Below, in pieces: positions 5,802 to 64,000 of a stretch of DNA of 64,000 bases; within the stretch, counting starts at the first letter, position 1; every line of letters starts with the position of its first letter. A program made the translations under genes and the position numbers. The notes under the pieces are model-generated. The model was given only the letters and a program-made list of their open reading frames with translations, made no database searches and was not told where the DNA came from. Source of the stretch: Nocardioides sp. SYSU D00065 (GTDB taxonomy: Bacteria; Actinomycetota; Actinomycetes; Propionibacteriales; Nocardioidaceae); NCBI RefSeq assembly GCF_017916425.1, contig NZ_JAFMSX010000004.1, positions 1 to 64,000 on the forward strand, given 5' to 3'.

Positions 5802-7054
5802 GCGGCGGGGCGCTGCGCCGCTTCCTCGGCGGCAGTGGCGGCATCATCATCGGCACGGCGGTGATGAACGTGTGCACCTTCGGCTTCACCATCGTGGCCG
5901 CGGGGGTGCTCGACACCGGTGACTACGGCGCGTTCTTCGCGTTGCTCAACCTCCTGATGGTCGTGTCGGTCCTCAACATGGGGCTGCAGGCCACGGCGGC
6001 GCGGCGGATCGTCGCCGACCCGGGAGGGGTCGCGGCCGTGGAGCGCTCGATCCTGCGCGTCGCGCATGCCACGGCCCTGGCGCTCGGCCTGGCGCTCGCG
6101 GTGCTGTCGCCCGCGGTGGCGTGGCTGCTCCAGCTGGACTCCGTCGTACCGGCTCTCGTCCTCGCCGCGCTGTCCGTCCCGACGACGATCATGGGCGCGC
6201 ACATCGGCATCCTGCAAGGCGAGAAGCGCTGGGCGGCGCTGTCCTGGCTCTACGTCCTCGCCGGACTCCCCCGGATCGCCGGGCTGGCCCTGCTGTGGTG
6301 GCACCCCGACGAGAGCGTCGCGCTGTTCGGCAGCGGGCTCGGCTACGTCGCGCCTGCCGTCCTGGGGTGGTGGCTGCTGCGTCGGCCGCGGTCGGCCAGT
6401 CCCGCCGACCCAGTCGTGCCGGCGGTCCCGCCGTGGGCCGTGTTGCGGGAGTCCCTGCACAGCTCCCAGGCTCTGCTGGCGTTCTTCGCCCTCGCCAACG
6501 TCGACATCGTCGTGGCCCGGCACGTGCTCTCCGAGCACGCCTCCGGCCTCTACGCCGTCGGGCTGCTGGTCGCCAAGATCATGCTCTACCTGCCGCAGTT
6601 CGTCGTGATCGTCATGTTCCCCTCGCTCGCCACCGCGCACGAGCGCCGGCGCGCGGTCGTGCGCGGCACCGCCGCCATCCTCGGCCTGGGCGTCGTGTGC
6701 ACGCTCGGCGTGCTGCTGCTGGCCGGCACCGCGGCCGAGGTCCTGGGCAGTGAGAAGCTCGACGCCGTCGCGGGTCACCTGTGGCTCTTCGCCGTCCTGG
6801 GCACGCTGCTCTCGATCACCCAGCTCCTGGTCTACGCCACCTTGGCCCGGCGCGGGCGCAGGTCCGTGCTGCTGGTGTGGGCGGCGCTGGTCGTGAGCGT
6901 CCTGGCGGGACTCGCCACGACCAGTCCCACCCAGCTGCTCGCGGTGATGATCGCGGTGACCGCCGTGCTCACCGCGGCCCTGGTGGTGACCAGCCTCCGC
7001 GGCGACTCCTCGGGCACGCGGTCCGGGAGCGTTGCGGACGGGCCCGGTGACTGA
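5798..7054 (+). CDS. polysaccharide flippase (Wzx/MATE-like), copy 2
   Basis: The protein is 418 residues, co-translated with copy 1 through an ATGA overlap. The two proteins align throughout: VMNVCTFGFTIVAAGVL and QATAARRIV match copy 1, as do GILQGEKRW, SQALLAFFAL, VDIVVARHVLSEH and LWLFAVLGT. This is a tandem duplication that has diverged. The pair may act as a heterodimer or on different lipid-linked substrates; this is inference. It converges on polA with one base between the stop codons. Confidence 0.8.
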   Translation: MSGGALRRFLGGSGGIIIGTAVMNVCTFGFTIVAAGVLDTGDYGAFFALLNLLMVVSVLNMGLQATAARRIVADPGGVAAVERSILRVAHATALALGLALAVLSPAVAWLLQLDSVVPALVLAALSVPTTIMGAHIGILQGEKRWAALSWLYVLAGLPRIAGLALLWWHPDESVALFGSGLGYVAPAVLGWWLLRRPRSASPADPVVPAVPPWAVLRESLHSSQALLAFFALANVDIVVARHVLSEHASGLYAVGLLVAKIMLYLPQFVVIVMFPSLATAHERRRAVVRGTAAILGLGVVCTLGVLLLAGTAAEVLGSEKLDAVAGHLWLFAVLGTLLSITQLLVYATLARRGRRSVLLVWAALVVSVLAGLATTSPTQLLAVMIAVTAVLTAALVVTSLRGDSSGTRSGSVADGPGD

Positions 7055-7055
7055 C

Positions 7056-9755
7056 TCAGTGGGCGGCGTCGTGCCAGCTGCGCCCGGTGCCGATTGACAC
7101 GTCGAGCGGGACGGCCAGGTCGGCCGCGCCACCCATCTCTGCGCGGACCAGCTCGGCGAGCGCGTCGCCCTCCCCCGGTGCGACCTCGAACACGAGCTCG
7201 TCGTGCACCTGCAGCAGCATCCGCGACCGCAGGCCCTGCTCGGCCAGCGCGCGCTCGACCCCCAGCATGGCGACCTTGACCAGGTCGGCGGCCGAGCCCT
7301 GGATCGGCGCGTTGAGCGCCATCCGCTCGGCCGTCTCGCGGCGCTGCCGGTTGTCGCTGGTCAGGTCGGGCAGGTAGCGCCGCCGGCCCAGGATCGTCTC
7401 GGTGAAGCCGGAGCGTCGTGCCTCGTCGACGATGCCGCCGAGGTAGTCGCGCACTCCGCCGAAGGTCTCGAAGTACTCCTGCATGAGCCCCGCGGCCTCG
7501 CTGGTGCTGATCCGCAGCTGCTGGGACAGGCCGAAGGCGGACAGCCCGTAGGCCAGGCCGTAGTTCATCGCCTTGATCTTGGCGCGCTGCTCGCCGCTCA
7601 CCTCCGCCGCGTCGACGCCGAACACCCGCGCCGCAGTGGTGGAGTGGAAGTCCTGACCGGAGCGGAACGCCTCGATGAGGAGCGAGTCCTCGGACAGGTG
7701 GGCCATGATCCGCATCTCGACCTGGCTGTAGTCGGCGGTCATCAGCGCCTCGTTGCCGTCGCCGACCACGAACCCCTCCCGGATCCGGCGACCGGCCTCG
7801 GTGCGGATGGGGATGTTCTGCAGGTTGGGGTCGGTGCTGGAGAGCCGCCCGGTCGCGGCGATGATCTGGTTGTACGTCGTGTGGATGCGGCCGTCGGGGG
7901 CGACGGTCTTCAGCAGCCCCTCGACCGTCTGGCGCAGCCGGATGACGTCGCGGTGCCGCAGCAGGTGCTGCAGGAACGGGTGCTCGGTCTTCTCGTACAG
8001 CGCCTGGAGAGCGTCGGCGTCGGTGGTGTAGCCGGTCTTGGTGCGCTTGGTCTTGGGCATGTCGAGCTCGTCGAACAGGACCACCTGCAGCTGCTTGGGC
8101 GAGCCGAGGTTGATCTCCTTGCCGATGACGTCGTAGGCGTCCTGGGCGGCCTGGCGCACCTGGTCGCCGAACTCCGACTCCAGGCGCTCGAGGTGATCCA
8201 GGTCGACCCCGATGCCCACCTGCTCCATCCGCACCAGGGTGCCGATCAGCGGCAGCTCGACCTCGCGCAGCAGGCGCGTGCCGCCGTGCTCCTCCACCGC
8301 GTCGTCGAGCGCGTCGGCGAGGTCGAGGACGGCCCGCGCGGTGAGCATGGCGGTGTCGCTGGCGGTCGTGTCGTCCAGCGCGTCGAAGCTGAGCTGGTCG
8401 ACGTCGCCGGTGTCCTGGCGCAGCTCGCGCTTGAGGTAGCGCAGAGTCAGGTCGGCGAGGTCGTAGGAGCGCTGGTCGGGCTGGACGAGGTAGGCAGCCA
8501 GGGCGGTGTCGACCTCGAGGCCGGCCAGCTCCCAGCCGTGCGCCGCCAGTGCCAGGCTCGGCCCGTTGGCGTCGTGGAGCGCCTTGGGACGGTCCGGGTC
8601 GGCGAGCCACGCCGCCACCGCCGCGTCGTCCTCGGCACCGATGCCGGCCACGTCGATCCAGGCGGCCACGCCCGCGCGCGTCGCCACCGCGATGGAGAGG
8701 ACCTCGCCGGTGCCGGCCCGCCACGAGCCCTGCACCGCGACGCCGACCCGCTCACCCTCGGGGGCATGCTGCTCCAGCCAGCCCGGCGCCTCGCCGGGTG
8801 CCAGCCGGCGGCCGTCGAGCTCGAAACCCGCCTCGGCCTGCGCCGCGTCTGCGGGCTCCGGGTCGATCGTGTCGAGCAGGCGGGTGCGCAGCTCGCCGCG
8901 GAACTCCAGCTCGTCGAGCAGCTCCAGGCCCTCCGTGCGGTCCCAGGGCTGGCGCACCAGCTGGCCGGGACGGATCGGGAGCGTGAGGTCGCGCACGAGC
9001 GCGTTGAGCCGGCGGTTGCGGATGACGTCGCCGAGGTGCGCCCGCAGCGCCTCGCCCTTCTTGCCGGTCACCTCGTCCGCGCGGGCGATCACGTTGTCGA
9101 GGCCGTCGAACTGGTTGATCCACTTGGCGGCGTAGCCCTGACCCACGCCGGGGACGCCGGGCAGGTTGTCGGACGTCTCGCCGACGATGGCCGCCAGCTC
9201 GGGATAGCGGTGCGGGGGGACGCCGTACTTCTCCTGCACCGCGGCCGGCGTGAGCCGGGCCAGCTCGCTGACCCCCCGCATCGTGTAGAGCACCGTGGAG
9301 TCGTCGGTCACCAGCTGGATGGAGTCGCGGTCGCCGGTCATGATCAGCACCTGCATGCCCTCGGCGAGCGCCTGCGTGGTCAGGGTGGCGATGATGTCGT
9401 CGGCCTCGTAGCCGTCCATCGACAGGTGCTGGATGCGCAGCGCGTCGAGCACGCGGCGGATCAGCGGGAGCTGGCTGCCGAACTCGTCCGGGGTCTTGTT
9501 GCGCTTGGCCTTGTAGTCGCTGTACTCCTCGAGCCGGAAGGTCTGGCGCGACTTGTCGAAGGCGACCGCCACGTGGGTCGGCTGCTCGTCGCGCAGCACG
9601 TTGACCAGCATCGAGGTGAAGCCGTAGACGGCGTTGGTGTGCTGTCCCGAGGCGGTCGCGAAGTTCTCCACCGGGAGGGCGAAGAAGGCGCGGTAGGCCA
9701 GGGAGTGGCCGTCCAGCAGCAGGAGGCGGGGGCGGGCTTCGCTCGTCTCGGGCAC
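7056..9755 (-). CDS. polA: DNA polymerase I
   Basis: The protein is 899 residues, full length. The N-terminal ~290 residues are the 5'-3' exonuclease (LLLDGHSLAYRAFFALP, DGYEADDIIATL, GVPGVGQGYAAKW). The central region is the degenerate 3'-5' exonuclease usual in actinobacteria. The polymerase domain has motif A (DYSQVEMRI), motif B (RAKIKAMNYGLAYG) and motif C (VHDE at 850-853). It does gap repair and Okazaki processing. The GTG at 9755 has TAGAGT 7 nt upstream, so the transcript is probably leaderless. Confidence 0.98.
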   Translation of the reverse strand: MPETSEARPRLLLLDGHSLAYRAFFALPVENFATASGQHTNAVYGFTSMLVNVLRDEQPTHVAVAFDKSRQTFRLEEYSDYKAKRNKTPDEFGSQLPLIRRVLDALRIQHLSMDGYEADDIIATLTTQALAEGMQVLIMTGDRDSIQLVTDDSTVLYTMRGVSELARLTPAAVQEKYGVPPHRYPELAAIVGETSDNLPGVPGVGQGYAAKWINQFDGLDNVIARADEVTGKKGEALRAHLGDVIRNRRLNALVRDLTLPIRPGQLVRQPWDRTEGLELLDELEFRGELRTRLLDTIDPEPADAAQAEAGFELDGRRLAPGEAPGWLEQHAPEGERVGVAVQGSWRAGTGEVLSIAVATRAGVAAWIDVAGIGAEDDAAVAAWLADPDRPKALHDANGPSLALAAHGWELAGLEVDTALAAYLVQPDQRSYDLADLTLRYLKRELRQDTGDVDQLSFDALDDTTASDTAMLTARAVLDLADALDDAVEEHGGTRLLREVELPLIGTLVRMEQVGIGVDLDHLERLESEFGDQVRQAAQDAYDVIGKEINLGSPKQLQVVLFDELDMPKTKRTKTGYTTDADALQALYEKTEHPFLQHLLRHRDVIRLRQTVEGLLKTVAPDGRIHTTYNQIIAATGRLSSTDPNLQNIPIRTEAGRRIREGFVVGDGNEALMTADYSQVEMRIMAHLSEDSLLIEAFRSGQDFHSTTAARVFGVDAAEVSGEQRAKIKAMNYGLAYGLSAFGLSQQLRISTSEAAGLMQEYFETFGGVRDYLGGIVDEARRSGFTETILGRRRYLPDLTSDNRQRRETAERMALNAPIQGSAADLVKVAMLGVERALAEQGLRSRMLLQVHDELVFEVAPGEGDALAELVRAEMGGAADLAVPLDVSIGTGRSWHDAAH

Positions 9756-34267: not shown

Positions 34268-34342
34268 GGGCGATTGGCGCAGCGGTAGCGCGCTTCCTTG
34301 ACACGGAAGAGGTCACTGGTTCAAACCCAGTATCGCCCACCA
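34268..34342 (+). tRNA. tRNA-Val(GAC) with encoded CCA
   Basis: Acceptor GGGCGAT / ATCGCCC, anticodon stem CTTCC / GGAAG with loop TTGACAC (anticodon GAC) and T-arm ACTGG / CCAGT. Discriminator A at 34339, then CCA at 34340-34342. The prophage integrase gene ends 16 nt downstream, so this tRNA is the likely integration target. Confidence 0.95.
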
Positions 34343-34357: not shown

Positions 34358-35545
34358 TCAGGCCCCATTTTCGGATCCCGAGGATGGGGCCTTCTGCATG
34401 TGTGATTCGCCCCCGTGCGCCCGACGTGCGCCCAGAGCGTCCCGGGCACGGTCCATCCGGGCCTCTGAAGCGTGGATGTAGCGCTCGACCGCGCGCAGCG
34501 AGGAGTGCCCCATGAGCACCATGATCTCGTGCGGCGGAACCCCGTTGTCGGCCAGCCAGGAGCCGTAGGAGTGCCGGCAGTCGTGCGGTGTCGGCAGCGG
34601 CGCCGCGAGCTCGGCGGCGCGCACGGCCGGTGCCCAGATCCGCTTCGTCCAGTTGCTGTAGTCCAGCGGCCGGCGATCCTCCGGCGCGACGTCGTAGTCC
34701 TGCGCGAATACAAGGCCCTCGCGGCCGTGGCGGGCGACGTGCGCCAGGTAGAGCTCGACGAGCTCGTCGGTCAGCGGCGCCCACCGGGACCCCGCTTCGC
34801 TCTTCGGCTGCGGCTTGATCGTGCCGTCGCGCTCGAGGACCTCCTGCACGCGCACGCGCCGGCGACGTACGTCGACGCGGAAGTGATGCATCCCCGCGCC
34901 CTCCTGCCACCGCAAGCCCGCGTCGAGCAGCAGCCGTACCAGCAGCTGGCTCTCCGGATCGGGTTCCCGCTCCCACGCTCGGCCGCGGGGCGTGCCTGCC
35001 GGCGGTCGGACCGGCCGCGTGATGGCCGCGATCAGCCGGTCGGCCTCGTCGATGTCGAGGAACCGGTCGACGTGCTTCGGCGGCTTCGGGGCGCGCACCC
35101 CCTCGGCGGGGTTGGTCCGGATCTTCCTCGCGGCGACCGCGGCCTCGAGGACCTGGCGCAGGAGACGTAGTGCCGTGGCGGCCGCCTCTCCCCCGACCTT
35201 CCGCGTGACCATGCCGGCCACCCACTTCTCGACGTCGATCGACTGGATCGACGCCAACGCCCACGAACCGAACGCCGGCTCGACGTGCACACGCCAGTGA
35301 GTCTCGTTCTTCGCGGCGGTGGCCTTGGCCACCCTCCGGGTCGTCTGCCATTCCGACCACCACGCCGACAGCGTCACCTTCCCAGCGTTCGGGTCGATGA
35401 AGTCACCGCGGCGCAGCTGCGACTCGAGCTCGGCCGCCCAGTCCTGCACCACCTTCTTCAACGGGTCCGTTCGGGTGTACCTCTTGCCGGCGACCTTGAC
35501 GATGCCCTGCCACTTCCCCGACGGCAGCCTGCGGAATGAAGCCAC
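34358..35545 (-). CDS. int: tyrosine recombinase integrase
   Basis: The 395-residue integrase has an N-terminal arm-binding region, an SAM-like core-binding domain and the catalytic domain. Expected catalytic residues are the Arg in LLDAGLRWQEGAG, the Lys in KPQPKSEAGS, HDCR (321-324), the His in GHSS (347) and Tyr356 in ERYIHAS. GTG at 35545 is the first plausible start. It overlaps by one base the stop of a 7-codon minicistron (TAGTG), which itself overlaps the upstream peptidase gene. Confidence 0.93.
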   Translation of the reverse strand: MASFRRLPSGKWQGIVKVAGKRYTRTDPLKKVVQDWAAELESQLRRGDFIDPNAGKVTLSAWWSEWQTTRRVAKATAAKNETHWRVHVEPAFGSWALASIQSIDVEKWVAGMVTRKVGGEAAATALRLLRQVLEAAVAARKIRTNPAEGVRAPKPPKHVDRFLDIDEADRLIAAITRPVRPPAGTPRGRAWEREPDPESQLLVRLLLDAGLRWQEGAGMHHFRVDVRRRRVRVQEVLERDGTIKPQPKSEAGSRWAPLTDELVELYLAHVARHGREGLVFAQDYDVAPEDRRPLDYSNWTKRIWAPAVRAAELAAPLPTPHDCRHSYGSWLADNGVPPHEIMVLMGHSSLRAVERYIHASEARMDRARDALGARRAHGGESHMQKAPSSGSENGA

Positions 35546-36034: not shown

Positions 36035-36505
36035 TCAGTCCTCGCGGCGGGCCGCGGCACGTTGCGGCCGCCGCATGTCCTCGGCCGTTCGGAGCGGGAC
36101 GGGCGTGTCCCAGGCGGTGTCGACCCGCGGGCCGGCGTCGAGGATGGCGTCGACGACGCCCAGGACGGCTCTCCGTTCGCTCTCGGTGAGCCTGTCGGCG
36201 CGGGCCGGGAGCTCGAACTTGGTTAGTCGCGGCCGTTGCCCGGCCGCAATCAGCACCTGCTCGACGTCGACGCCCAGCATGGTGGCGAGCGCGTCCGCGG
36301 TTCGATCGGTGATCTTGGAGTGTCCCTGGCGGATCCGGCGGAAGACCTCGTACGTCGGGACGTCGCCGCCCGGGCCGACCTTCTCGACCAGCCGGTCGTA
36401 CGCCTCGTGCAGGCTGATCTGCTCACCACGTCCACGTCGTTGCCCCAGTTCTTTGAGCCTGCGCTCCATCAGGTCTTGGAGCGTCTCGGCGTTCACATCG
36501 CTCAA
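36035..36505 (-). CDS. prophage repressor, helix-turn-helix type
   Basis: The 156-residue protein starts at TTG 36505, set by GGAGG 7 nt upstream; longer frames lie in the operator region. The HTH spans about residues 20-85 (ISLHEAYDRLVE, PTYEVFRRIRQGHSKIT, TADALATMLGVDVEQV). The C-terminal part has no S24 peptidase motif, so induction probably depends on the ImmA-like peptidase. It is divergent from a Cro-like gene across a 196-nt operator region. Confidence 0.8.
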   Translation of the reverse strand: MSDVNAETLQDLMERRLKELGQRRGRGEQISLHEAYDRLVEKVGPGGDVPTYEVFRRIRQGHSKITDRTADALATMLGVDVEQVLIAAGQRPRLTKFELPARADRLTESERRAVLGVVDAILDAGPRVDTAWDTPVPLRTAEDMRRPQRAAARRED

Positions 36506-39120: not shown

Positions 39121-39344
39121 TGCCGACCTTCTACGTCACCACCGACCGGCCCCAGGTGCCCGCCGCCCGGTTCGCCGCCGAGGACCTCGTCGACCTCGGC
39201 GAGCAGGTCGCAAGCCACCTCGCTCGGCACCGCGTGCTCTCGCGCGCCGTGCCGTTCCACGCCCAGGTCGGCGACGACCACGGCGCCATCCACCAGTCCG
39301 GCCTCCTGCGGCCGGTCACCTTCACGATCACCCAGGAGTCCTGA
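39120..39344 (+). CDS. hypothetical small phage protein
   Basis: The 74-residue protein (MPTFYVTTDRPQVPAARFAA) is a likely single alpha/beta domain. It overlaps both neighbours (TGATG and single-base overlap). Not recognised. Confidence 0.6.
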   Translation: MPTFYVTTDRPQVPAARFAAEDLVDLGEQVASHLARHRVLSRAVPFHAQVGDDHGAIHQSGLLRPVTFTITQES

Positions 39345-40537
39345 TGCCCATCATCACCACCCAGCGCCGCATGGCCGAGCAGGGCCGGATCCGCCTCGGC
39401 CACAAGATCACCGGCACCAACAGCAAGGGCAGGGAGTACACCCGTCCGGCCAAGCTCGAGCGGTTCCGCTTCACCAGCCCGTCGGAGCGGCTCATCACCG
39501 AGATCGCCACAACGTACGGCGGCGAGGCCCGCCCGTGGGGCAACGACGGCAAAGCCGAGTTCGAGGTCCTCTCCGAGGCCACCGCGATCCCCGTCATCGT
39601 CGTCAAGGGCGGCTTCTCCCAGTGGCACGAGTTCTGGACCCGGGGCGGCTGCCAGCACCGCTGCGACGGCGAGAAGGACGTCGCCGGCAACTACTGCGAC
39701 CCGCAGGACCCCAACCACATCGCCGCGATCGAGAAGCCCACCACACGGCTGTCGGTGATGCTGTCGGAGATCGAGTCCCTCGGCGTGTGGCGGATGGAGT
39801 CGAAGGGCTGGAACGCCGCTGCCGAGCTGCCGTCGATGGCCGAGCTCGCGATGCACGTCGGCGACCTGGTCCCGGCCACCCTCGGGCTGGCGGAGCGGTC
39901 TTCGATCATCCAGACCGACAAGGGCCCGCAGACGTCGCGGTACGTCGTGCCGTTCCTCGACCTGCACGTCACGAAGCAGCGGCTCGTCGAGATCGTCGGA
40001 GGCAAGGACGGCGCCCCGGCGCTCGAGGGTGCGGGGGCCGGCACGGCTGCGATCGAGGCACCAGCCCCGCCGTCCAACCAGCAGGTCGAGCAGCCGGTGG
40101 CCGCGGCGCCGCAGGTGTCCATCCCGACGCCTGAGCAGATCGCCGGCGCTGACCTGGCGACGCTGCGGCAGATGGTCGCGTATCTCGCGCAGCACGACCA
40201 CGGCGAGCACCCTGCGGCTCAGGCGGCGACGGCGCGCATCGGCGAGCTCGAGGCGGCGGACGTCGCCGGCAGCGCCTCGCAGCCGGACCCGACGCAGGTG
40301 GCGCCGCAGCCGGACGCGGACGGCGTGTACGAGGGCGAGACCGTCGGCCCCGACGCGGACCAGGTGTGGGCCGACATCCTCAAGCTCGCCGGTCAGCGCG
40401 GCATGAAGGGCCCCGACCTCGAGGACGACGTCGCGACGTTCTTCGGCGGCATGACGTCGGCCGAGGCGTCCGGCGCCGAGCTGGCCGAGTACCTCAAGGA
40501 CCTGGAGTCCCGGCCGGTTGAGGCAGGTGCGGCATGA
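39344..40537 (+). CDS. phiC31 gp3-like protein (recombination directionality factor family)
   Basis: The 397-residue protein begins MPIITTQRRMAEQGRIRLG, then RPAKLERFRFTSPSERLI, then a four-Cys metal site (CQHRCDGEKDVAGNYC). These match the gp3-like family whose phiC31 member is the directionality factor for a serine integrase. Residues about 225-320 are a Pro/Ala-rich linker before a short C-terminal helical domain. The integrase here is a tyrosine recombinase, so this protein probably works in replication or recombination rather than excision. Confidence 0.7.
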   Translation: MPIITTQRRMAEQGRIRLGHKITGTNSKGREYTRPAKLERFRFTSPSERLITEIATTYGGEARPWGNDGKAEFEVLSEATAIPVIVVKGGFSQWHEFWTRGGCQHRCDGEKDVAGNYCDPQDPNHIAAIEKPTTRLSVMLSEIESLGVWRMESKGWNAAAELPSMAELAMHVGDLVPATLGLAERSSIIQTDKGPQTSRYVVPFLDLHVTKQRLVEIVGGKDGAPALEGAGAGTAAIEAPAPPSNQQVEQPVAAAPQVSIPTPEQIAGADLATLRQMVAYLAQHDHGEHPAAQAATARIGELEAADVAGSASQPDPTQVAPQPDADGVYEGETVGPDADQVWADILKLAGQRGMKGPDLEDDVATFFGGMTSAEASGAELAEYLKDLESRPVEAGAA

Positions 40538-41534: not shown

Positions 41535-42208
41535 GGTACACCACCCGTCCGCTGTCCGACCGCACCTGGCTCCGGCCGGCGGCCGCACGGAAGCGGTCGC
41601 AGTTCGACTCGACGTGGTCCGCGACCCTCGACCTCCTCGGACGCGAGATCGACCACCTCGGCGGCCGCGACGTCGTCATCGAGGTCGACGTCCGTGAGCA
41701 GGACATCCGCCTCGACGGCACCCTGCGCGCCAACGCCCGCACACCCGAACACCCCGCGGTCGTCGTGGCGTTCGAGTCCCGCGACCACGGGCCGATGCTG
41801 CACCGCTGCGACCGGTTTGAGCGGTCGTACCGCCGCGACTCCGTCGGATGGCAGGAGAACGTCCGCGCGATCGCGCTCACCCTGCGGGCCCTGCGCGCGG
41901 TCGACCGGTACGGCGCGACCGAGACCGGCCAGCAGTACGCCGGCTTCAAGGCGCTTCCCGCGGGACGCGCTATGCCCGCCAGCCACATGACTCGTGAGCA
42001 GGCAGCCGAATTGCTCGACCGTGTCGCGATCGGTCCGGACGCGGTGCCGGACGATGACGCGGTTCCGAGGATGCTCGCCTCGGACGCGTTGGCCAAGGCG
42101 GCGCACCGGTCGGCCCGCGCGATGTCGCACCCGGACCGGCACGACGGCGACCGCACGCTGTGGGACCAGGTCGAGCAGGCCGCCCAGGTGCTGGGGGTCT
42201 CGCGATGA
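41531..42208 (+). CDS. phage protein with C-terminal J-domain-like motif
   Basis: The 225-residue protein has an N-terminal alpha/beta part (VVIEVDVREQDIRLDG) and a C-terminal segment AHRSARAMSHPDRHDGDRTL whose HPD (200-202) is the hallmark of J-domains. Such genes are common in actinophages. It may recruit host DnaK for replication or assembly; this is inference. Confidence 0.65.
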   Translation: MRYTTRPLSDRTWLRPAAARKRSQFDSTWSATLDLLGREIDHLGGRDVVIEVDVREQDIRLDGTLRANARTPEHPAVVVAFESRDHGPMLHRCDRFERSYRRDSVGWQENVRAIALTLRALRAVDRYGATETGQQYAGFKALPAGRAMPASHMTREQAAELLDRVAIGPDAVPDDDAVPRMLASDALAKAAHRSARAMSHPDRHDGDRTLWDQVEQAAQVLGVSR

Positions 42209-42309
42209 CCACCTACTGGGCCGGCTTCGTCGCCGGCGTCCTCGCCGTCATCTGTCTCGCCATCACCTACTTCGCGCTGCTCCGCGGCGACGGGAGGCGG
42301 CGACCATGA
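42205..42309 (+). CDS. 34-residue single-helix membrane protein
   Basis: ATG at 42205 overlaps the previous stop and the TGA overlaps the RusA start, so it is held in the operon by two ATGA overlaps. The peptide is one membrane helix (YWAGFVAGVLAVICLAITYF) with a basic tail. Confidence 0.6.
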   Translation: MTTYWAGFVAGVLAVICLAITYFALLRGDGRRRP

Positions 42310-42839
42310 ACATCCTCACCATCCACGTCATCGGCACCCCAGCGCCGCAGGGGTCGAAGCGGGCCTTCGTCGTCAACGGCAAGGCCGTCCTGGCCGAGTC
42401 GTCGAAGAAGGTCAAGCCCTGGCGCCAGGACGTGAAGTCCGCCGTCGAGGACCTCGCCAGCGACGGCCTCGTCCGCAGCCTCGAGCAGCTGCCCCTCACC
42501 GGGCCGCTCGAGGTGTCGATCGACTTCTACCTCCCCCGTCCTGGCTACCACTTCCGCACCGGCAAGCACGCCGGCGAGCTCAAGGACAACGCACCGGCGT
42601 ACGTCGACAAGAAGCCCGACGTAGACAAGCTGCTCCGCTCCACCCTCGACGGCCTCAAGGAGGCCGGCGTCTACCGCGACGACGCCCAAGTCGCGATCGC
42701 CACCGGGGTGAAGCACTACGCCAACGCCGCCACCGGCGCCCGCATCGCTGTGCGCCCCCTGATCGCCTCCCCAGCTGCGGACTCCCCCGCCGCGGCTGGG
42801 GAGGTCCTCAACCAGCGCCAGGAGGTGCTGTTCCCATGA
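42306..42839 (+). CDS. RusA-like Holliday junction resolvase
   Basis: The 177-residue protein has the RusA pattern: GTPAPQGSKRA at the N-terminus and the acidic cluster PDVDKLLRSTLDGL...YRDDAQV (D105, D107, D115, D125, D126) that binds Mg. The C-terminal 25 residues are unrelated to the family core. It resolves branched DNA before packaging. Confidence 0.9.
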   Translation: MNILTIHVIGTPAPQGSKRAFVVNGKAVLAESSKKVKPWRQDVKSAVEDLASDGLVRSLEQLPLTGPLEVSIDFYLPRPGYHFRTGKHAGELKDNAPAYVDKKPDVDKLLRSTLDGLKEAGVYRDDAQVAIATGVKHYANAATGARIAVRPLIASPAADSPAAAGEVLNQRQEVLFP

Positions 42840-43369
42840 CCACCGTGCCTGACTCGACCCCGGGTACGGTGACGGACGCCGAGGGCGGGGAAGCCGTCCT
42901 GGACGGGCCCTCGGCGTCCACCCTCCCCCTGCTCGGCGCCGGCCAGTTCCCGGACTGGATGGACCGGGGCGTCTGCCACCAGACCGACCCCGAGCTCTTC
43001 TTCCCTGAGAAGGGCGGATCCACCCGCGAGGCCATGTCCATCTGCGCCCGCTGCCCCGTCGCGGCCGAGTGCCTCGACTACGCCATCGACAACGACGAGC
43101 GGTTCGGCATCTGGGGCGGCGTCAGCGAGCGCCACCGCCGCGCCATCAAGAAGGCCATGGAGGAAGAGGCCGGCGTCGAGCGAGTCCCCTGCCCGCGCTG
43201 CGACGAGACCTTCCGCGATGCCGTCGCGCTCGCAGCTCACGCACGCCACACCCACGACCGGCCCGACGAGACCTTCGCCTGCCCGGCCTGCGAACACACC
43301 AGCACGGTCAAGCAAGGCCTGACCCTGCATATCCGCGCCGCCCACCCCGAGCTCAGGAACGCATCATGA
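42836..43369 (+). CDS. WhiB-family regulator fused to two C2H2 zinc fingers
   Basis: The 177-residue protein has a WhiB domain with the four FeS cysteines (C47, C70, C73, C79) and the GIWGG turn (91-95). After a basic helix come two fingers of identical spacing: C119-x2-C122-x12-H135-x4-H140 and C149-x2-C152-x12-H165-x4-H170. WhiB proteins bind 4Fe-4S and usually partner the sigma factor; phage WhiBs can repress host whiB genes. The finger tail would add direct DNA or RNA contact. ATGA overlaps on both sides. Confidence 0.85.
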   Translation: MTTVPDSTPGTVTDAEGGEAVLDGPSASTLPLLGAGQFPDWMDRGVCHQTDPELFFPEKGGSTREAMSICARCPVAAECLDYAIDNDERFGIWGGVSERHRRAIKKAMEEEAGVERVPCPRCDETFRDAVALAAHARHTHDRPDETFACPACEHTSTVKQGLTLHIRAAHPELRNAS

Positions 43370-44067
43370 CCACCACTGCCGACATCACACCCGCGACGAA
43401 GATCGCGCTGCTCAAGCACCTCGCCTCCGGCAAGAGCCTCGACATCGTCGCCACCATCGTGCACCTCGAGCGCGACCAGGTCCTCGACGTCGCGTCCCAC
43501 CACGGCTACCCCGACCGCGACAAGCTCGCCTGGGCCGTTGACGTCCTCGAGAAGAAGCTCGACGACGACGCCACCGAGCTGCCCGACAAGACGGCCGAGC
43601 ACACCCGCGAGGCGCGCGCGACCACCCCGCGTCCCACCGTCGCGCCGGCCCCTACCCCGCCGGCGGGCGGCGGCGCGCTCGAGGAGCTCATCACGAGGGG
43701 CAAGGCCCACGAGTCGAAGCGCATCCAGACCGCCGCCAACAAGGTGCTCGACGACATCGACCGCCTCCGCACGCTGCTACGCGAGGACGAGAAGAAGCAC
43801 GCCGCCCGGCGCAAGGCCGAGCGCGAGAGGGCCGCGGCCCGCGCCGAGGTGGAGCGCCTCGAGCGGCAGCTGGCTGAGGCGAAGGCCAAGCTCCGCGGCG
43901 ACAAGAAGCCCGCCGCCAGGTCGACGCCCACCGCAGACGGGCCGCCAGCCGCGACGGTGCGCGCCTGGGCGGCCGCCAACGACGTGGAGTGCCCGTCGGT
44001 CGGCCGTGTCCCGGCCGTCGTGCGAGCAGCGTACGACGAAGCACACGCCCACCAGCGGGCGTCATGA
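43366..44067 (+). CDS. coiled-coil protein with Lsr2-like C-terminal DNA-binding domain
   Basis: The 233-residue protein starts with a short helical domain (KIALLKHLASGKSLDIVATIV). A Pro/Ala linker is followed by a long charged coiled coil (RAAARAEVERLERQLAEAKA). The C-terminus (VRAWAAANDVECPSVGRVPA, then VVRAAYDEAH) matches the Lsr2 DNA-binding domain, which has RGR where this has VGR. Lsr2 is the actinobacterial xenogeneic silencer. The dimerisation beta-domain of Lsr2 is replaced here, so it may act as an anti-silencer or a phage nucleoid protein. Confidence 0.7.
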   Translation: MTTTADITPATKIALLKHLASGKSLDIVATIVHLERDQVLDVASHHGYPDRDKLAWAVDVLEKKLDDDATELPDKTAEHTREARATTPRPTVAPAPTPPAGGGALEELITRGKAHESKRIQTAANKVLDDIDRLRTLLREDEKKHAARRKAERERAAARAEVERLERQLAEAKAKLRGDKKPAARSTPTADGPPAATVRAWAAANDVECPSVGRVPAVVRAAYDEAHAHQRAS

Positions 44068-44333
44068 CCCGCTTCCGCGCCATCTGGCCCATCACCAACG
44101 AGCGGCTCCCCTTCACCGCCCTCGTCGCCCAGGCACAGCACGACCTCCCGTTCCTCGCCGCCCAGGCTCACGCCCGCATCACCGGCCCCGGCCGCTGGTC
44201 CGCCGCGCTCTCCACCGACATCCCGGGATCCGGCCGCGTCACCAAGTGGGTCCTCCTCTACGAGGCGCCGGCCACCCACCGAACCCGAACCACCAGCCAG
44301 ACCATCCACCAGGAAGCAGGCACCGCAGCATGA
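44064..44333 (+). CDS. hypothetical small phage protein
   Basis: The 89-residue protein (FRAIWPITNERLPFTALVAQ) is not recognised. It overlaps both neighbours by 4 nt. Confidence 0.6.
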   Translation: MTRFRAIWPITNERLPFTALVAQAQHDLPFLAAQAHARITGPGRWSAALSTDIPGSGRVTKWVLLYEAPATHRTRTTSQTIHQEAGTAA

Positions 44334-45021
44334 CCAACCCAGCCGACTACACCGCCAAGATCCGCGCCAAGGGCCTCGACGCCACCGGCGTCACCGAACA
44401 GCTCGCCGCCGAGATGTACCGCAACAAGAGCCGCCACTACATGGCAATCGTCGAATTCAAGGTCGACGAGACCCACGAGAAGGCCGACGGCACCCGCAAG
44501 GTCGACCTGGTCCTCACCCAGGTCGAGCCCGCCACCCACACCGACCTCGAGGAGCACCTCCGCGAGCTCACCCGCGTCGGCTACATCAACCGCCAGCGCG
44601 CCGACGGCCAGATGGCGATTGACGAGTCACTCGGCGCCGAGCGCACCGTCGCCGACGTCCTCGCCTCCAGCCAGTCGTTCCGCCCCCACCCGTTCCTCCC
44701 CGACGACGCCGCCAAGGACACCCCCATCTGCGACGTCTGCGGCGCCATCGAAGCCTCCGCCGTGCACTCCAGCCAGGACGTCCTCGACCAGCCCGACGAC
44801 GAGGCCGACGACCAGGATGGCAGCGACACGAGCCGTACGTCGGCGACTTCGACGACTTCGACGACTACGACGCCGACCCCGAGCACCAGGGCCCGCACGC
44901 CTACGACGCCGGCCCCGACGACGTCTGCATCTGCGGCCGACCGTTCGAGCACGACCTCCACGCCACCACGCACCCGCTCACCGCCGTGCCCGACCCCTTC
45001 GCCCCACCCGCCACCACCTGA
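44330..45021 (+). pseudogene. phage protein gene split by an apparent -1 frameshift
   Basis: The coding frame runs from ATG 44330 (MTNPADYTAKIRAKGLDATG) to about 44829, then good codon use jumps to the -1 frame (EPYVGDFDDFDDYDADPEHQ) and ends at TGA 45019-45021. The second frame has no start codon of its own, so the two parts belong together. Adding one C (ACACGAG to ACACCGAG) restores a continuous 231-codon frame. Each half has a Cys pair or His set (ICDVCG; VCICGRPFEHDLH) suggestive of zinc binding. It may be a sequence error, a real mutation or programmed frameshifting. Function unknown. Confidence 0.75.
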
Positions 45022-53512: not shown

Positions 53513-55078
53513 GTGACGGCGACCGCCGACCCGCTCAACGTCTGGGAGCACGCCGCCCGAGCGTTCGAGCTCCGTGCGCCCGACCCCGTCCGCGAGAAGG
53601 CCGACGAGGACTCCTGGCGCACACCCGGCACGCTGGCCAAGCGGCTCAACCCCGCCACCGTGCAGACCCCCGCCCTCGACCGCGTCGACGCCGCCCTCCA
53701 GCGGCTGATGTCCACCCCCGACGGCCGGCTCATCATCACCATGCCGCCGCAGGAGGGGAAGTCCACCCGGGTCGCGAAGGACTTCGTGCTGTGGGTCCTC
53801 AAGCAGCGGCCCTGGACCCGCGTCGTCGGCGCGTCCTACGGCCAAGGCCTCGCGAACCGCAACGGTCGCTCGATCCGGAACATGATCAAGTCGAACCCGG
53901 AGCTCGGCATGACCCTCGCCGCCGACAACGGCTCCGCGTCCGAGTGGCAGCTCCACGACCGCGACGGCGGCCTCGTGTCCGTCGGCATCGGCGCCGGCCT
54001 CACCGGCCGCCCCGCCGACCTGATGGTCATCGACGACCCGATCAAGGACCGCAAGGAAGCTGACTCCGAGGTCTTCCGGCAAGCCGTCTGGGACTGGTGG
54101 ACCGACGTCGCGTCCACCCGACTCGCGCCCGGCGCGCCGGTCGTGGTGATCCTCACCAGGTGGCACGAGGACGACTTCGCCGGCCGGCTCCTCGCCGCGG
54201 AGGACGGCCACCTGTGGGAGGTCCTCAACATCCCCGCCGAGGCCGACCACAACCCCGACGAGGGCGAGACCGACCCCCTCGGCCGGCAGCCCGGCGAGTT
54301 CCTCGAGTCCGCCCGCGGCCGCACCCCCGAGCAGTGGCGTGCGATCCGCACCCGCGTCGGCCAGCGCACGTGGAACGCGCTGTACCAGGGCCGCCCGTCA
54401 TCGCCCGCCGGCACGATCTTCAAGCGGCACTCGTTCAAGCGCTACGACCGGCCGCTGTGGCTCGAGCGGGAAGACGGCACCCGCATCGTCACCGGCTTCG
54501 ACGACCTGGTCCTCAGCTGGGACATGACCTTCAAGGACACCGAGGGCACCGACAAGGTCGCCGGCCACGTGTGGGGACGGATCGGCGCCGACGTCTACCT
54601 CCTCGACCGCGTCAACCGGCGCATGGACTTCGTCGAAACCCTCGCCGCGTTCAAGGCCCTCGCCGCGCGGTGGCCGCAGGCGCTGCTCAAGCTCGTCGAG
54701 GACAAGGCCAACGGCCCGGCGGTGATAGCGATGCTCGGCCGCACCGTGCCCGGCATCGTGCCGATCGAGCCCGACGGGTCGAAGGTCGCCCGCGCGACAG
54801 CCGTGTCGCCGCTCGCCGAGGCCGGCAACGTGTGGCTCCCCGCCTCGATCGGCGCCGACGGCGAGCCGTTCGCGCCGTGGGCCGACGACGTCATCGAGGA
54901 AGCGGCCGGGTTCCCGACCGCGAAGCACGACGACGACGTCGACGCCATGTCGCAGGCGCTGAACCGCATGATCTTGATGCCGCTCCTCGCCGGGCAGGAC
55001 CTTGGCGCCGGCACCGGCATCGTCACCCACGCCGACCTCGACCCCGCGCTCGCTGGGTTCGGCCGCTACATCCCCTGA
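53513..55078 (+). CDS. terminase large subunit
   Basis: The 521-residue DNA-packaging motor has an ATPase with Walker A MPPQEGKST (about 77-85) and Walker B DLMVIDDP (about 169-176), then motif III SAS-type VVILTRWHEDD. The nuclease domain follows with acidic residues in VLSWDMTF, VEDKANG and HDDDVDAMSQ. I chose GTG 53513 because AAGGGGG ends 8 nt upstream; GTG 53504 is the alternative. Confidence 0.95.
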   Translation: MTATADPLNVWEHAARAFELRAPDPVREKADEDSWRTPGTLAKRLNPATVQTPALDRVDAALQRLMSTPDGRLIITMPPQEGKSTRVAKDFVLWVLKQRPWTRVVGASYGQGLANRNGRSIRNMIKSNPELGMTLAADNGSASEWQLHDRDGGLVSVGIGAGLTGRPADLMVIDDPIKDRKEADSEVFRQAVWDWWTDVASTRLAPGAPVVVILTRWHEDDFAGRLLAAEDGHLWEVLNIPAEADHNPDEGETDPLGRQPGEFLESARGRTPEQWRAIRTRVGQRTWNALYQGRPSSPAGTIFKRHSFKRYDRPLWLEREDGTRIVTGFDDLVLSWDMTFKDTEGTDKVAGHVWGRIGADVYLLDRVNRRMDFVETLAAFKALAARWPQALLKLVEDKANGPAVIAMLGRTVPGIVPIEPDGSKVARATAVSPLAEAGNVWLPASIGADGEPFAPWADDVIEEAAGFPTAKHDDDVDAMSQALNRMILMPLLAGQDLGAGTGIVTHADLDPALAGFGRYIP

Positions 55079-63921: not shown

Positions 63922-64000
63922 ATGGCACAGACCCAGACCCGCTTCTTCCCCGACGGCGACTACCCCGCCCTCCTCAACCAGGCGTTCGCCGCGTACGAAG
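63922..64000 (+). CDS. N-terminal part of the next tail gene
   Basis: ATG at 63922 follows AGGAG with a 6-nt spacer. The visible 26 residues (MAQTQTRFFPDGDYPALLNQ) run off the window. By position it could be a tail assembly chaperone. Confidence 0.6.
   Translation, partial: MAQTQTRFFPDGDYPALLNQAFAAYE

Follow-up and report, generated by a model that had tools for sequence, protein, structure and literature searches.

The whiB-C2H2 gene was examined in the window, which is the whole stretch of 64,000 nucleotides that was analysed, bases 1-64000 of contig 4. The gene lies in a prophage of ~48.7 kb between two identical 45-bp repeats, and the features of the locus are collected in Table 1. The part annotated left of position 64000 also contains an exonuclease, a DnaB-type helicase, and portal and head genes. 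The whiB-C2H2 gene belongs to an early-type gene run, placed between the genes of RusA and an Lsr2-tailed protein of 233 aa. Its product had been regarded as a phage protein in an earlier note on this DNA. The gene is indeed part of a phage genome, but the 45-bp repeats identify a prophage and not a free phage. The stretches scanned for operator-like repeats and for sigma-70-like promoters gave nothing convincing.

Table 1. Features of the whiB-C2H2 locus and its prophage (window coordinates; residues refer to the whiB-C2H2 product).
Feature	Position	Strand	Basis
attL, 45 bp of the tRNA-Val 3' part	34298..34342	+	exact repeat at contig 83030-83074; tRNA call
Integrase	34358..35545	-	PHROG 1, 1e-55
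Repressor-like gene	36035..36505	-	PHROG 12831, 1.9e-7
Gp3-like (recombination directionality factor-like) protein	39344..40537	+	PF18897, 4.6e-32
RusA-like Holliday junction resolvase	42306..42839	+	PHROG 140, 3e-26; overlaps the whiB start (ATGA)
whiB-C2H2 gene	42836..43369	+	single open frame, 177 aa; Pfam Whib and zf-C2H2
WhiB Fe-S domain, residues 41-104	42956..43147	+	Pfam 1.8e-25; PDB 8dy9 5.6e-30; AlphaFold and Foldseek
Helix 4 and linker, residues 96-118	43121..43189	+	sequence; AlphaFold helix 98-111
C2H2 finger 1, residues 119-140	43190..43255	+	strict spacing; zf-C2H2 best stretch 118-140
C2H2 finger 2, residues 149-170	43280..43345	+	strict spacing; zf-C2H2 in two stretches; position analysis
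Downstream coupled Lsr2-tailed gene, 233 aa	43366..44067	+	PF23359, 4.7e-8
Terminase large subunit, start of head genes	53513..55078	+	PHROG 38, 1.3e-105

The frame runs from an ATG at 42836 to a stop that ends at 43369, with ATGA overlaps at both ends: the upstream stop overlaps its start, and its own stop overlaps the downstream start. The 177 residues comprise an N-terminus of 40 residues, the WhiB domain, helix 4 with a linker up to residue 118, and the two fingers. The GC content at third codon positions is 0.97 in the WhiB domain, 0.83 in the linker, and 0.85 in the finger tail. Because it remains high over the joint, there is no sign of a frameshift. An artefact of this kind joining two genes, which the earlier note had named beforehand as refuting, is ruled out by the reading frame, the GC content by codon position, and the gene overlaps. 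The described order of a WhiB domain with four Cys and GIWGG, followed by two C-x2-C-x12-H-x4-H fingers, is correct (Pfam, 1.8e-25 and 3.4e-7, respectively), and the WhiB-C2H2 fusion is confirmed as genuine and phage-borne. An internal start at Met109, which would give a separate finger peptide, was weighed from the sequence, and nothing supported it. No hairpin above chance was found at the WhiB/finger joint.

The predicted Fe-S ligands are C47, C70, C73, and C79, and the GIWGG turn (residues 91-95) is located at 43106-43120. The protein therefore carries the C..C-x2-C-x5-C pattern and the G[IV]WGG turn by which the Wbl family is recognised. The closest solved relative of the domain is WhiB of S. 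venezuelae in RNA polymerase complexes with WhiA (8dy9/8dy7; E-value of 5.6e-30 for 8dy9), and 8dy9 was also the top Foldseek match of the AlphaFold model (1.9e-8, WhiB part). The aromatic residues that contact sigma-A region 4 are present: W41, F55, F56, and W93 align with W3, F17, F18, and W60 of WhiB1. In WhiB3, replacing the residue that corresponds to F17, F18, or W60 by alanine is reported to eliminate binding to sigma-A4, and the protein tolerated the loss of only the first Trp (PMC10245118). The proposal that the protein binds the sigma factor is supported by the presence of these residues, which WhiB1 and WhiB3 need for sigma-A region 4, and sigma-A binding by the WhiB domain is likely. 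The genome carrying the window (3.87 Mb) contains four further WhiB matches, and the domain shares 62% identity with the host WhiB L002. This identity, together with the Streptomyces WhiB as the nearest solved structure, would suit a dominant-negative or decoy of the host WhiB2 that blocks division genes or superinfection, with fingers that stabilise or localise it. Such action has been reported for WhiB-TM4. However, the TM4 protein is short and is not known to carry fingers, and the gains and losses seen in related WhiBs point to a function for the tail itself; we regard the decoy as improbable.

The strict C-x2-C-x12-H-x4-H motif is present twice in the tail and is absent elsewhere in the window (530 open stretches in six frames, each 60 aa or longer). 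When the residues of the tail were shuffled 200,000 times, at least one motif appeared in 188 cases and two motifs in none, which rules out a chance motif. The Pfam zf-C2H2 profile matches over two stretches (3.4e-7; 30.8 bits jointly, with a cut-off of 25.2), and the tail also matches CTCF and other solved C2H2 proteins (best E-value of 1.6e-13, summed over the CTCF repeats). Classical C2H2 fingers are defined by C-x2-4-C-x12-H-x3-5-H with a core of Phe and Leu. Finger 1 has both the spacing and the core, and finger 2 has the spacing with Ser in place of the usual Phe. The structure predictions are less definite. In the AlphaFold model of the full protein, the tail block has a pLDDT of 43-75 and the helix of the second finger is without confidence; in that of the tail alone (mean pLDDT of 60), finger 1 is modelled as one long helix and not as a beta-beta-alpha fold. 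Foldseek matches to zinc fingers had low probability only. Zinc binding by the fingers is likely, judging from the ligand pattern.

The contact positions of C2H2 fingers are usually occupied by Arg, Lys, Asn, or His, and a linker of the TGEKP type is typical of DNA-reading C2H2 proteins such as those of the Zif268 type. In the whiB-C2H2 product, positions -1, 2, 3, and 6 are D, V, A, and A in finger 1 and V, Q, G, and L in finger 2, and the fingers are joined by DRPDETFA, which is not TGEKP-like. Neither finger thus has the contact residues and linker of a Zif268-type reader. The tail has a net charge of 0, and the fingers alone one of -1; the tails of ten hand-picked other phage WhiBs range from +4 to +18, and those of four other finger tails from IMG/VR from +1 to +4. 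The RGRP AT-hook of WhiB7/WblC is absent from the 177 aa. Positions -1, 2, 3, and 6 are named as the C2H2 contact positions in the study of AFV1p06, an archaeal virus protein with a single C2H2 finger that binds dsDNA with a preference for GC and is a precedent for DNA contact (PMC3541406). The contact residues and the neutral tail speak against the sequence-specific reading that had been expected. The simpler element of that proposal, contact with DNA, is partly backed by the homologues of the neighbouring gene, some of which have a finger-spaced motif where others have an Lsr2 domain. DNA contact by the fingers appears somewhat likely.

The WhiB-C2H2 architecture was initially favoured to be a unique oddity. 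This was overturned by profile scans, which found contig L266 and then three more. A WhiB with one finger is encoded in four IMG/VR contigs: L356 (the same as L266 and L346), L353 (the same as L348), L347, and L378. Five viral genomes, namely the prophage of the window and 4 of the 161 distinct IMG/VR WhiB frames, therefore carry the combination. In the first or only finger, all five keep the two Cys, the Phe, and the two His, and most other positions differ. The usual finger Leu is replaced by Arg in L353 and L347, by Tyr in L356, and by Val in L378. Among the four IMG/VR fingers, that of L356 alone matches Pfam zf-C2H2, with 17.2 bits against a cut-off of 25.2. Like the window's gene, these genes have a finger with x12-H-x4-H spacing and a stop that overlaps the next start. 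Unlike it, they have one finger, and three of the four (L356, L353, and L347) have an extra N-terminal region with weak, below cut-off matches to HTH. L349 and L418 belong to the same WhiB clade and have no finger. Because L349 is of the same clade as L347 and L353 and shares their ERTAS end, the comparison represents a clean gain or loss of a finger. In the tree, the four IMG/VR WhiBs cluster with L349 and L418, and the WhiB of the window is placed outside, but few columns resolve this poorly resolved tree and the bootstrap is unsettled. A tree in which all five finger WhiBs are held together was not rejected (p-AU 0.19).

With full-length queries, no two-finger WhiB was found elsewhere, within thresholds that more divergent WhiB domains could escape. 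In 341 genomes of the family, the best other match (2.0e-31) covers residues 13-122 and then meets a stop; in 394 genomes of the class, the four other matches better than 1e-31 all meet a stop or end by residue 121. A query with the tail alone found at 0.001 only 1 of 197 genomes, namely its own. In the class sample, it matched 80 of 394 genomes at E<=0.1, which is at chance level, and the 29 loci scanned for the motif contained no WhiB-finger frame. Among 50,697 phage records, 1,226 had a WhiB match, and the sole one with at least 80% coverage was the finger-less prophiGD54-2 gp79; 60 of the 1,226 matches were viewed and the WhiBs of six phages translated, and fingers are possible elsewhere in these records. 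Among 72,556 plasmid records, 377 matched (30 of them viewed), and the WhiB of Streptomyces sp. NBC_00239, the sole match with at least 80% coverage, has another kind of Cys-rich tail and no C2H2. A gapped DNA pattern yielded 43 stretches in IMG/VR without a real WhiB-C2H2; it missed the four IMG/VR fingers because it demanded a Leu that none of them has at that position. NCBIfam at 0.01 gave zero matches for WhiB-C2H2 or the downstream protein. The search that the earlier note had suggested for actinophages, made here in viral genomes, returned one-finger WhiBs in four viral contigs and no second two-finger case. The architecture is recurrent with one finger and apparently rare among phages.

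These comparisons also bear on whether the tail is a functionless addition that is neutral or in decay. Finger 2 is without the usual Phe, no convincing relative came from searches with only the tail, and L349 and L418 of the finger clade do without a finger. However, all eight zinc ligands are at exact spacing, the GC content by codon position stays coding-like, and the ligands and the Phe are invariant in the five WhiB-C2H2 proteins while their other finger residues mostly differ. A tail without function is therefore very improbable.

Fingers are one of several kinds of tail in phage WhiBs. The 161 distinct frames were extracted from 324 IMG/VR loci and form a biased set in which some contigs were met repeatedly. 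The scans took the best 80 loci of 364, 576, 251, and 550 relatives, ranked against window-like queries, and the tail counts are consequently not frequencies. By crude motif rules, 90 tails have at most 25 residues, 12 have 26-44, and 1 runs off the contig end. The remaining tails comprise 25 with Cys4 zinc-like motifs, 18 of at least 45 residues that are Cys-poor, 10 that are otherwise Cys-rich, 4 with C2H2 spacing, and 1 with Lsr2. Nine long Cys-poor tails were compared with Pfam: three reach the cut-off for HTH (L331, L409, and L421), four have weaker matches to HTH or sigma region 4 (L149, L270, L379, and L383), and two have no match (L158 and L318). None of the 50 distinct chromosomal WhiBs nearest to that of the window (65 loci) has a tail of at least 45 residues. 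The statement that WhiB proteins normally lack strong DNA binding was thus too broad, considering the AT-hook of WhiB7, the Arg-rich motif of WhiB3, and the 58 of 161 phage frames (in this biased set) with a Cys-rich tail or one of at least 45 residues. More generally, tails of many kinds were seen in phage WhiBs (L126-L205, L265-L344, and L346-L505), and the chromosomal WhiBs examined have short ones. Che8 gp65 (L020, 947-1594) has three successive Cys4-type modules after its WhiB domain. In Che8, gp62 is likewise annotated as WhiB, and a second WhiB with two such modules appears in related contigs such as L141.

The downstream protein of 233 aa consists of a conserved N-terminal domain, a coiled-coil-like middle, and an Lsr2 DNA-binding domain (residues 191-226). 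Near full-length homologues are present in seven genomes (the window, L247, L346, L347, L348, L349, and L350); a weak match of 51 residues in L351 was excluded from this count. Three others of 274 genomes of the order match its C-terminal part only, and searches of the phage and plasmid records gave no homologue. The N-terminal domain and the coiled-coil-like middle are common to all seven, and the C-terminus varies. Three have an Lsr2 DNA-binding domain (window, 4.7e-8; L247, 2e-9; L350, 1.2e-9), and three (L346, L348, and L349) have a C-x4-C-x12-H-x4-H finger spacing, for which the Pfam C2H2-type matches are below the cut-off (0.075 for L346, none for L348, and 0.016 for L349). The C-terminus of L347 is unassigned. 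Since Lsr2 and finger are exchanged at one place, the finger may do the work of the DNA-binding domain, as judged from its position. This suggests that the finger is an exchangeable module at a site where DNA-binding modules sit.

The gene of this protein is located directly 3' of whiB in all seven genomes. The fingers may therefore bind protein instead, tethering WhiB to a phage or host protein such as the Lsr2-tailed partner, which would supply the DNA contact in trans like WhiA. The neutral tail and the small residues at the contact positions fit such a tether, as does the host class-II WhiB, which is reported not to bind DNA on its own and to act together with WhiA (PMC10245118). However, the finger-spaced motif in the partner's own DNA-binding slot (three of seven) fits DNA binding better, and the fingers do not seem to be needed for pairing since a finger-less WhiB adjoins the same partner in L247, L349, and L350. 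We consider a purely protein-binding role rather unlikely.

Related prophages were traced through their Gp3-like protein: of 341 genomes of the family, 19 besides that of the window have a relative at E<=1e-20. Nineteen regions of up to 11 kb were examined. Two regions contain a WhiB frame with the usual motifs, and tblastn revealed a divergent WhiB in two more, L241 (Pfam 2.9e-15) and L256 (tblastn alone). L247 (genome G656) retains the order RusA, WhiB, and Lsr2-tailed protein; its WhiB has a 20-residue tail without fingers, and its Lsr2-tailed protein is 57% identical to that of the window. In L242 (G176), WhiB and an Lsr2 DNA-binding domain are combined in one protein of the same gene run (35.4 bits; cut-off of 26.9), and its WhiB tail is identical to that of IMG/VR L128. 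In L238 (G154), an HTH protein with a Cys-rich N-terminus, which is not a WhiB, is encoded between RusA and the Lsr2-tailed protein. Comparison of the window with L247, L242, and L238 indicates that the gene run varies: its WhiB can end in fingers or in a short tail, be fused to Lsr2, or give way to another protein of a DNA-binding type. A protein with a Cys/His-rich, finger-like N-terminal region replaces WhiB in L243 (reverse complement, ~6080-7135) and L238 (5702-6811); the Pfam assignment as an HTH protein concerns that of L238. Long ORFs in the same variable run of L239 and L249 resemble DNA cytosine methyltransferases by eye.

With slightly better than even confidence, we propose that whiB-C2H2 encodes a prophage WhiB regulator whose fingers hold the sigma-A-docked WhiB domain on DNA or on a partner near promoters. 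In the prophage protein, the short basic tail of a host WhiB would have been extended by the two C2H2 fingers. Within the host RNA polymerase, the docking site of the Fe-S WhiB domain would be region 4 of sigma-A, the principal sigma factor. The fingers, placed where WhiB7 has its AT-hook, would add a second grip just upstream of -35, either on DNA or on a DNA-bound partner, for which the coupled Lsr2-tailed protein is the most evident candidate. During the lytic programme, host polymerase might then be steered towards selected promoters of phage or host, or kept from them. In view of the neutral tail and of contact residues that are for the most part small or hydrophobic, we place a DNA grip with modest specificity first and a partner tether second. 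More tentatively, and with a little less than even confidence, phage WhiBs may be a plug-in platform with a constant sigma-A-docking domain and swappable C-terminal DNA readers (Lsr2, HTH, Cys4 zinc, and C2H2). If so, each phage would retarget host RNA polymerase to its own promoters, and in the C2H2 version a finger of eukaryotic type would read DNA within a bacterial initiation complex.

Among known systems, WhiB7/WblC is similar in having an Fe-S WhiB domain on sigma-A region 4 and a C-terminal DNA-binding element, the latter being predicted in the case of whiB-C2H2. It differs in its RGRP AT-hook in place of two C2H2 fingers, and the WhiB domain described here is closer to Streptomyces WhiB than to WhiB7. 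The C-terminal AT-hook of WhiB7 contacts DNA upstream of -35, and the C-terminus of WhiB3 touches DNA near -35, possibly by non-specific contacts (PMC10245118). WhiB7/WblC is described as the only Wbl with a recognised DNA-binding motif, and how WhiB proteins without one find promoters as an open question; the word zinc does not occur in the available text (PMC6282962). The class of Streptomyces WhiB and mycobacterial WhiB2, which works with WhiA, provides the closest solved WhiB domain; it has a short tail and uses WhiA for DNA binding, unlike the fused tail of the prophage protein. The mycobacteriophage WhiBs of the zinc-like Cys4 'FCS' kind (Che8 gp65, Piper2020 gp60, Xula gp39, and MooMoo gp58) have a Cys-rich tail that starts at the same place, but with C-x2-C...C-x3-C spacing, basic tails, and no C2H2. 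AFV1p06 has a classical C2H2 fold, which the fingers described here may adopt, and also belongs to a virus of prokaryotes; it is a small, single-finger protein of an archaeal virus, and no WhiB domain is mentioned in the available part of the source (PMC3541406). A survey of phage WhiB and Lsr2 includes a Ku-Lsr2 fusion, WhiB-TM4, and the Tweety WhiB targeted by a prophage defence, and zinc is absent from its main text as available (PMC8612146). Among the open-licence papers listed on WhiB fusions in phages, no title or opening of an abstract describes a WhiB with C2H2 fingers. The phage WhiB-C2H2 architecture is a new variant within the WhiB family. It would be unusual to find classical C2H2 fingers combined with a bacterial regulator that binds a sigma factor. 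With their interchangeable tails, phage WhiBs amount to domain swaps made by nature, and the finger, Lsr2-fused, and tail-less WhiBs of related prophages can reveal the role of the C-terminal element.

Two minor observations concern other parts of the prophage. ARAGORN predicted a tRNA-Ala at 43559-43642 on the minus strand inside the Lsr2-tailed gene, which is probably spurious because Rfam over 42000-45000 found nothing at the gathering threshold. The terminase shares 74% identity with its counterpart in 'Microcystis phage MinS1' (MZ923504.1, L345), and its next relatives among the matches listed are those of Arthrobacter phages; therefore, the cyanobacterial host label of MinS1 may deserve a check.
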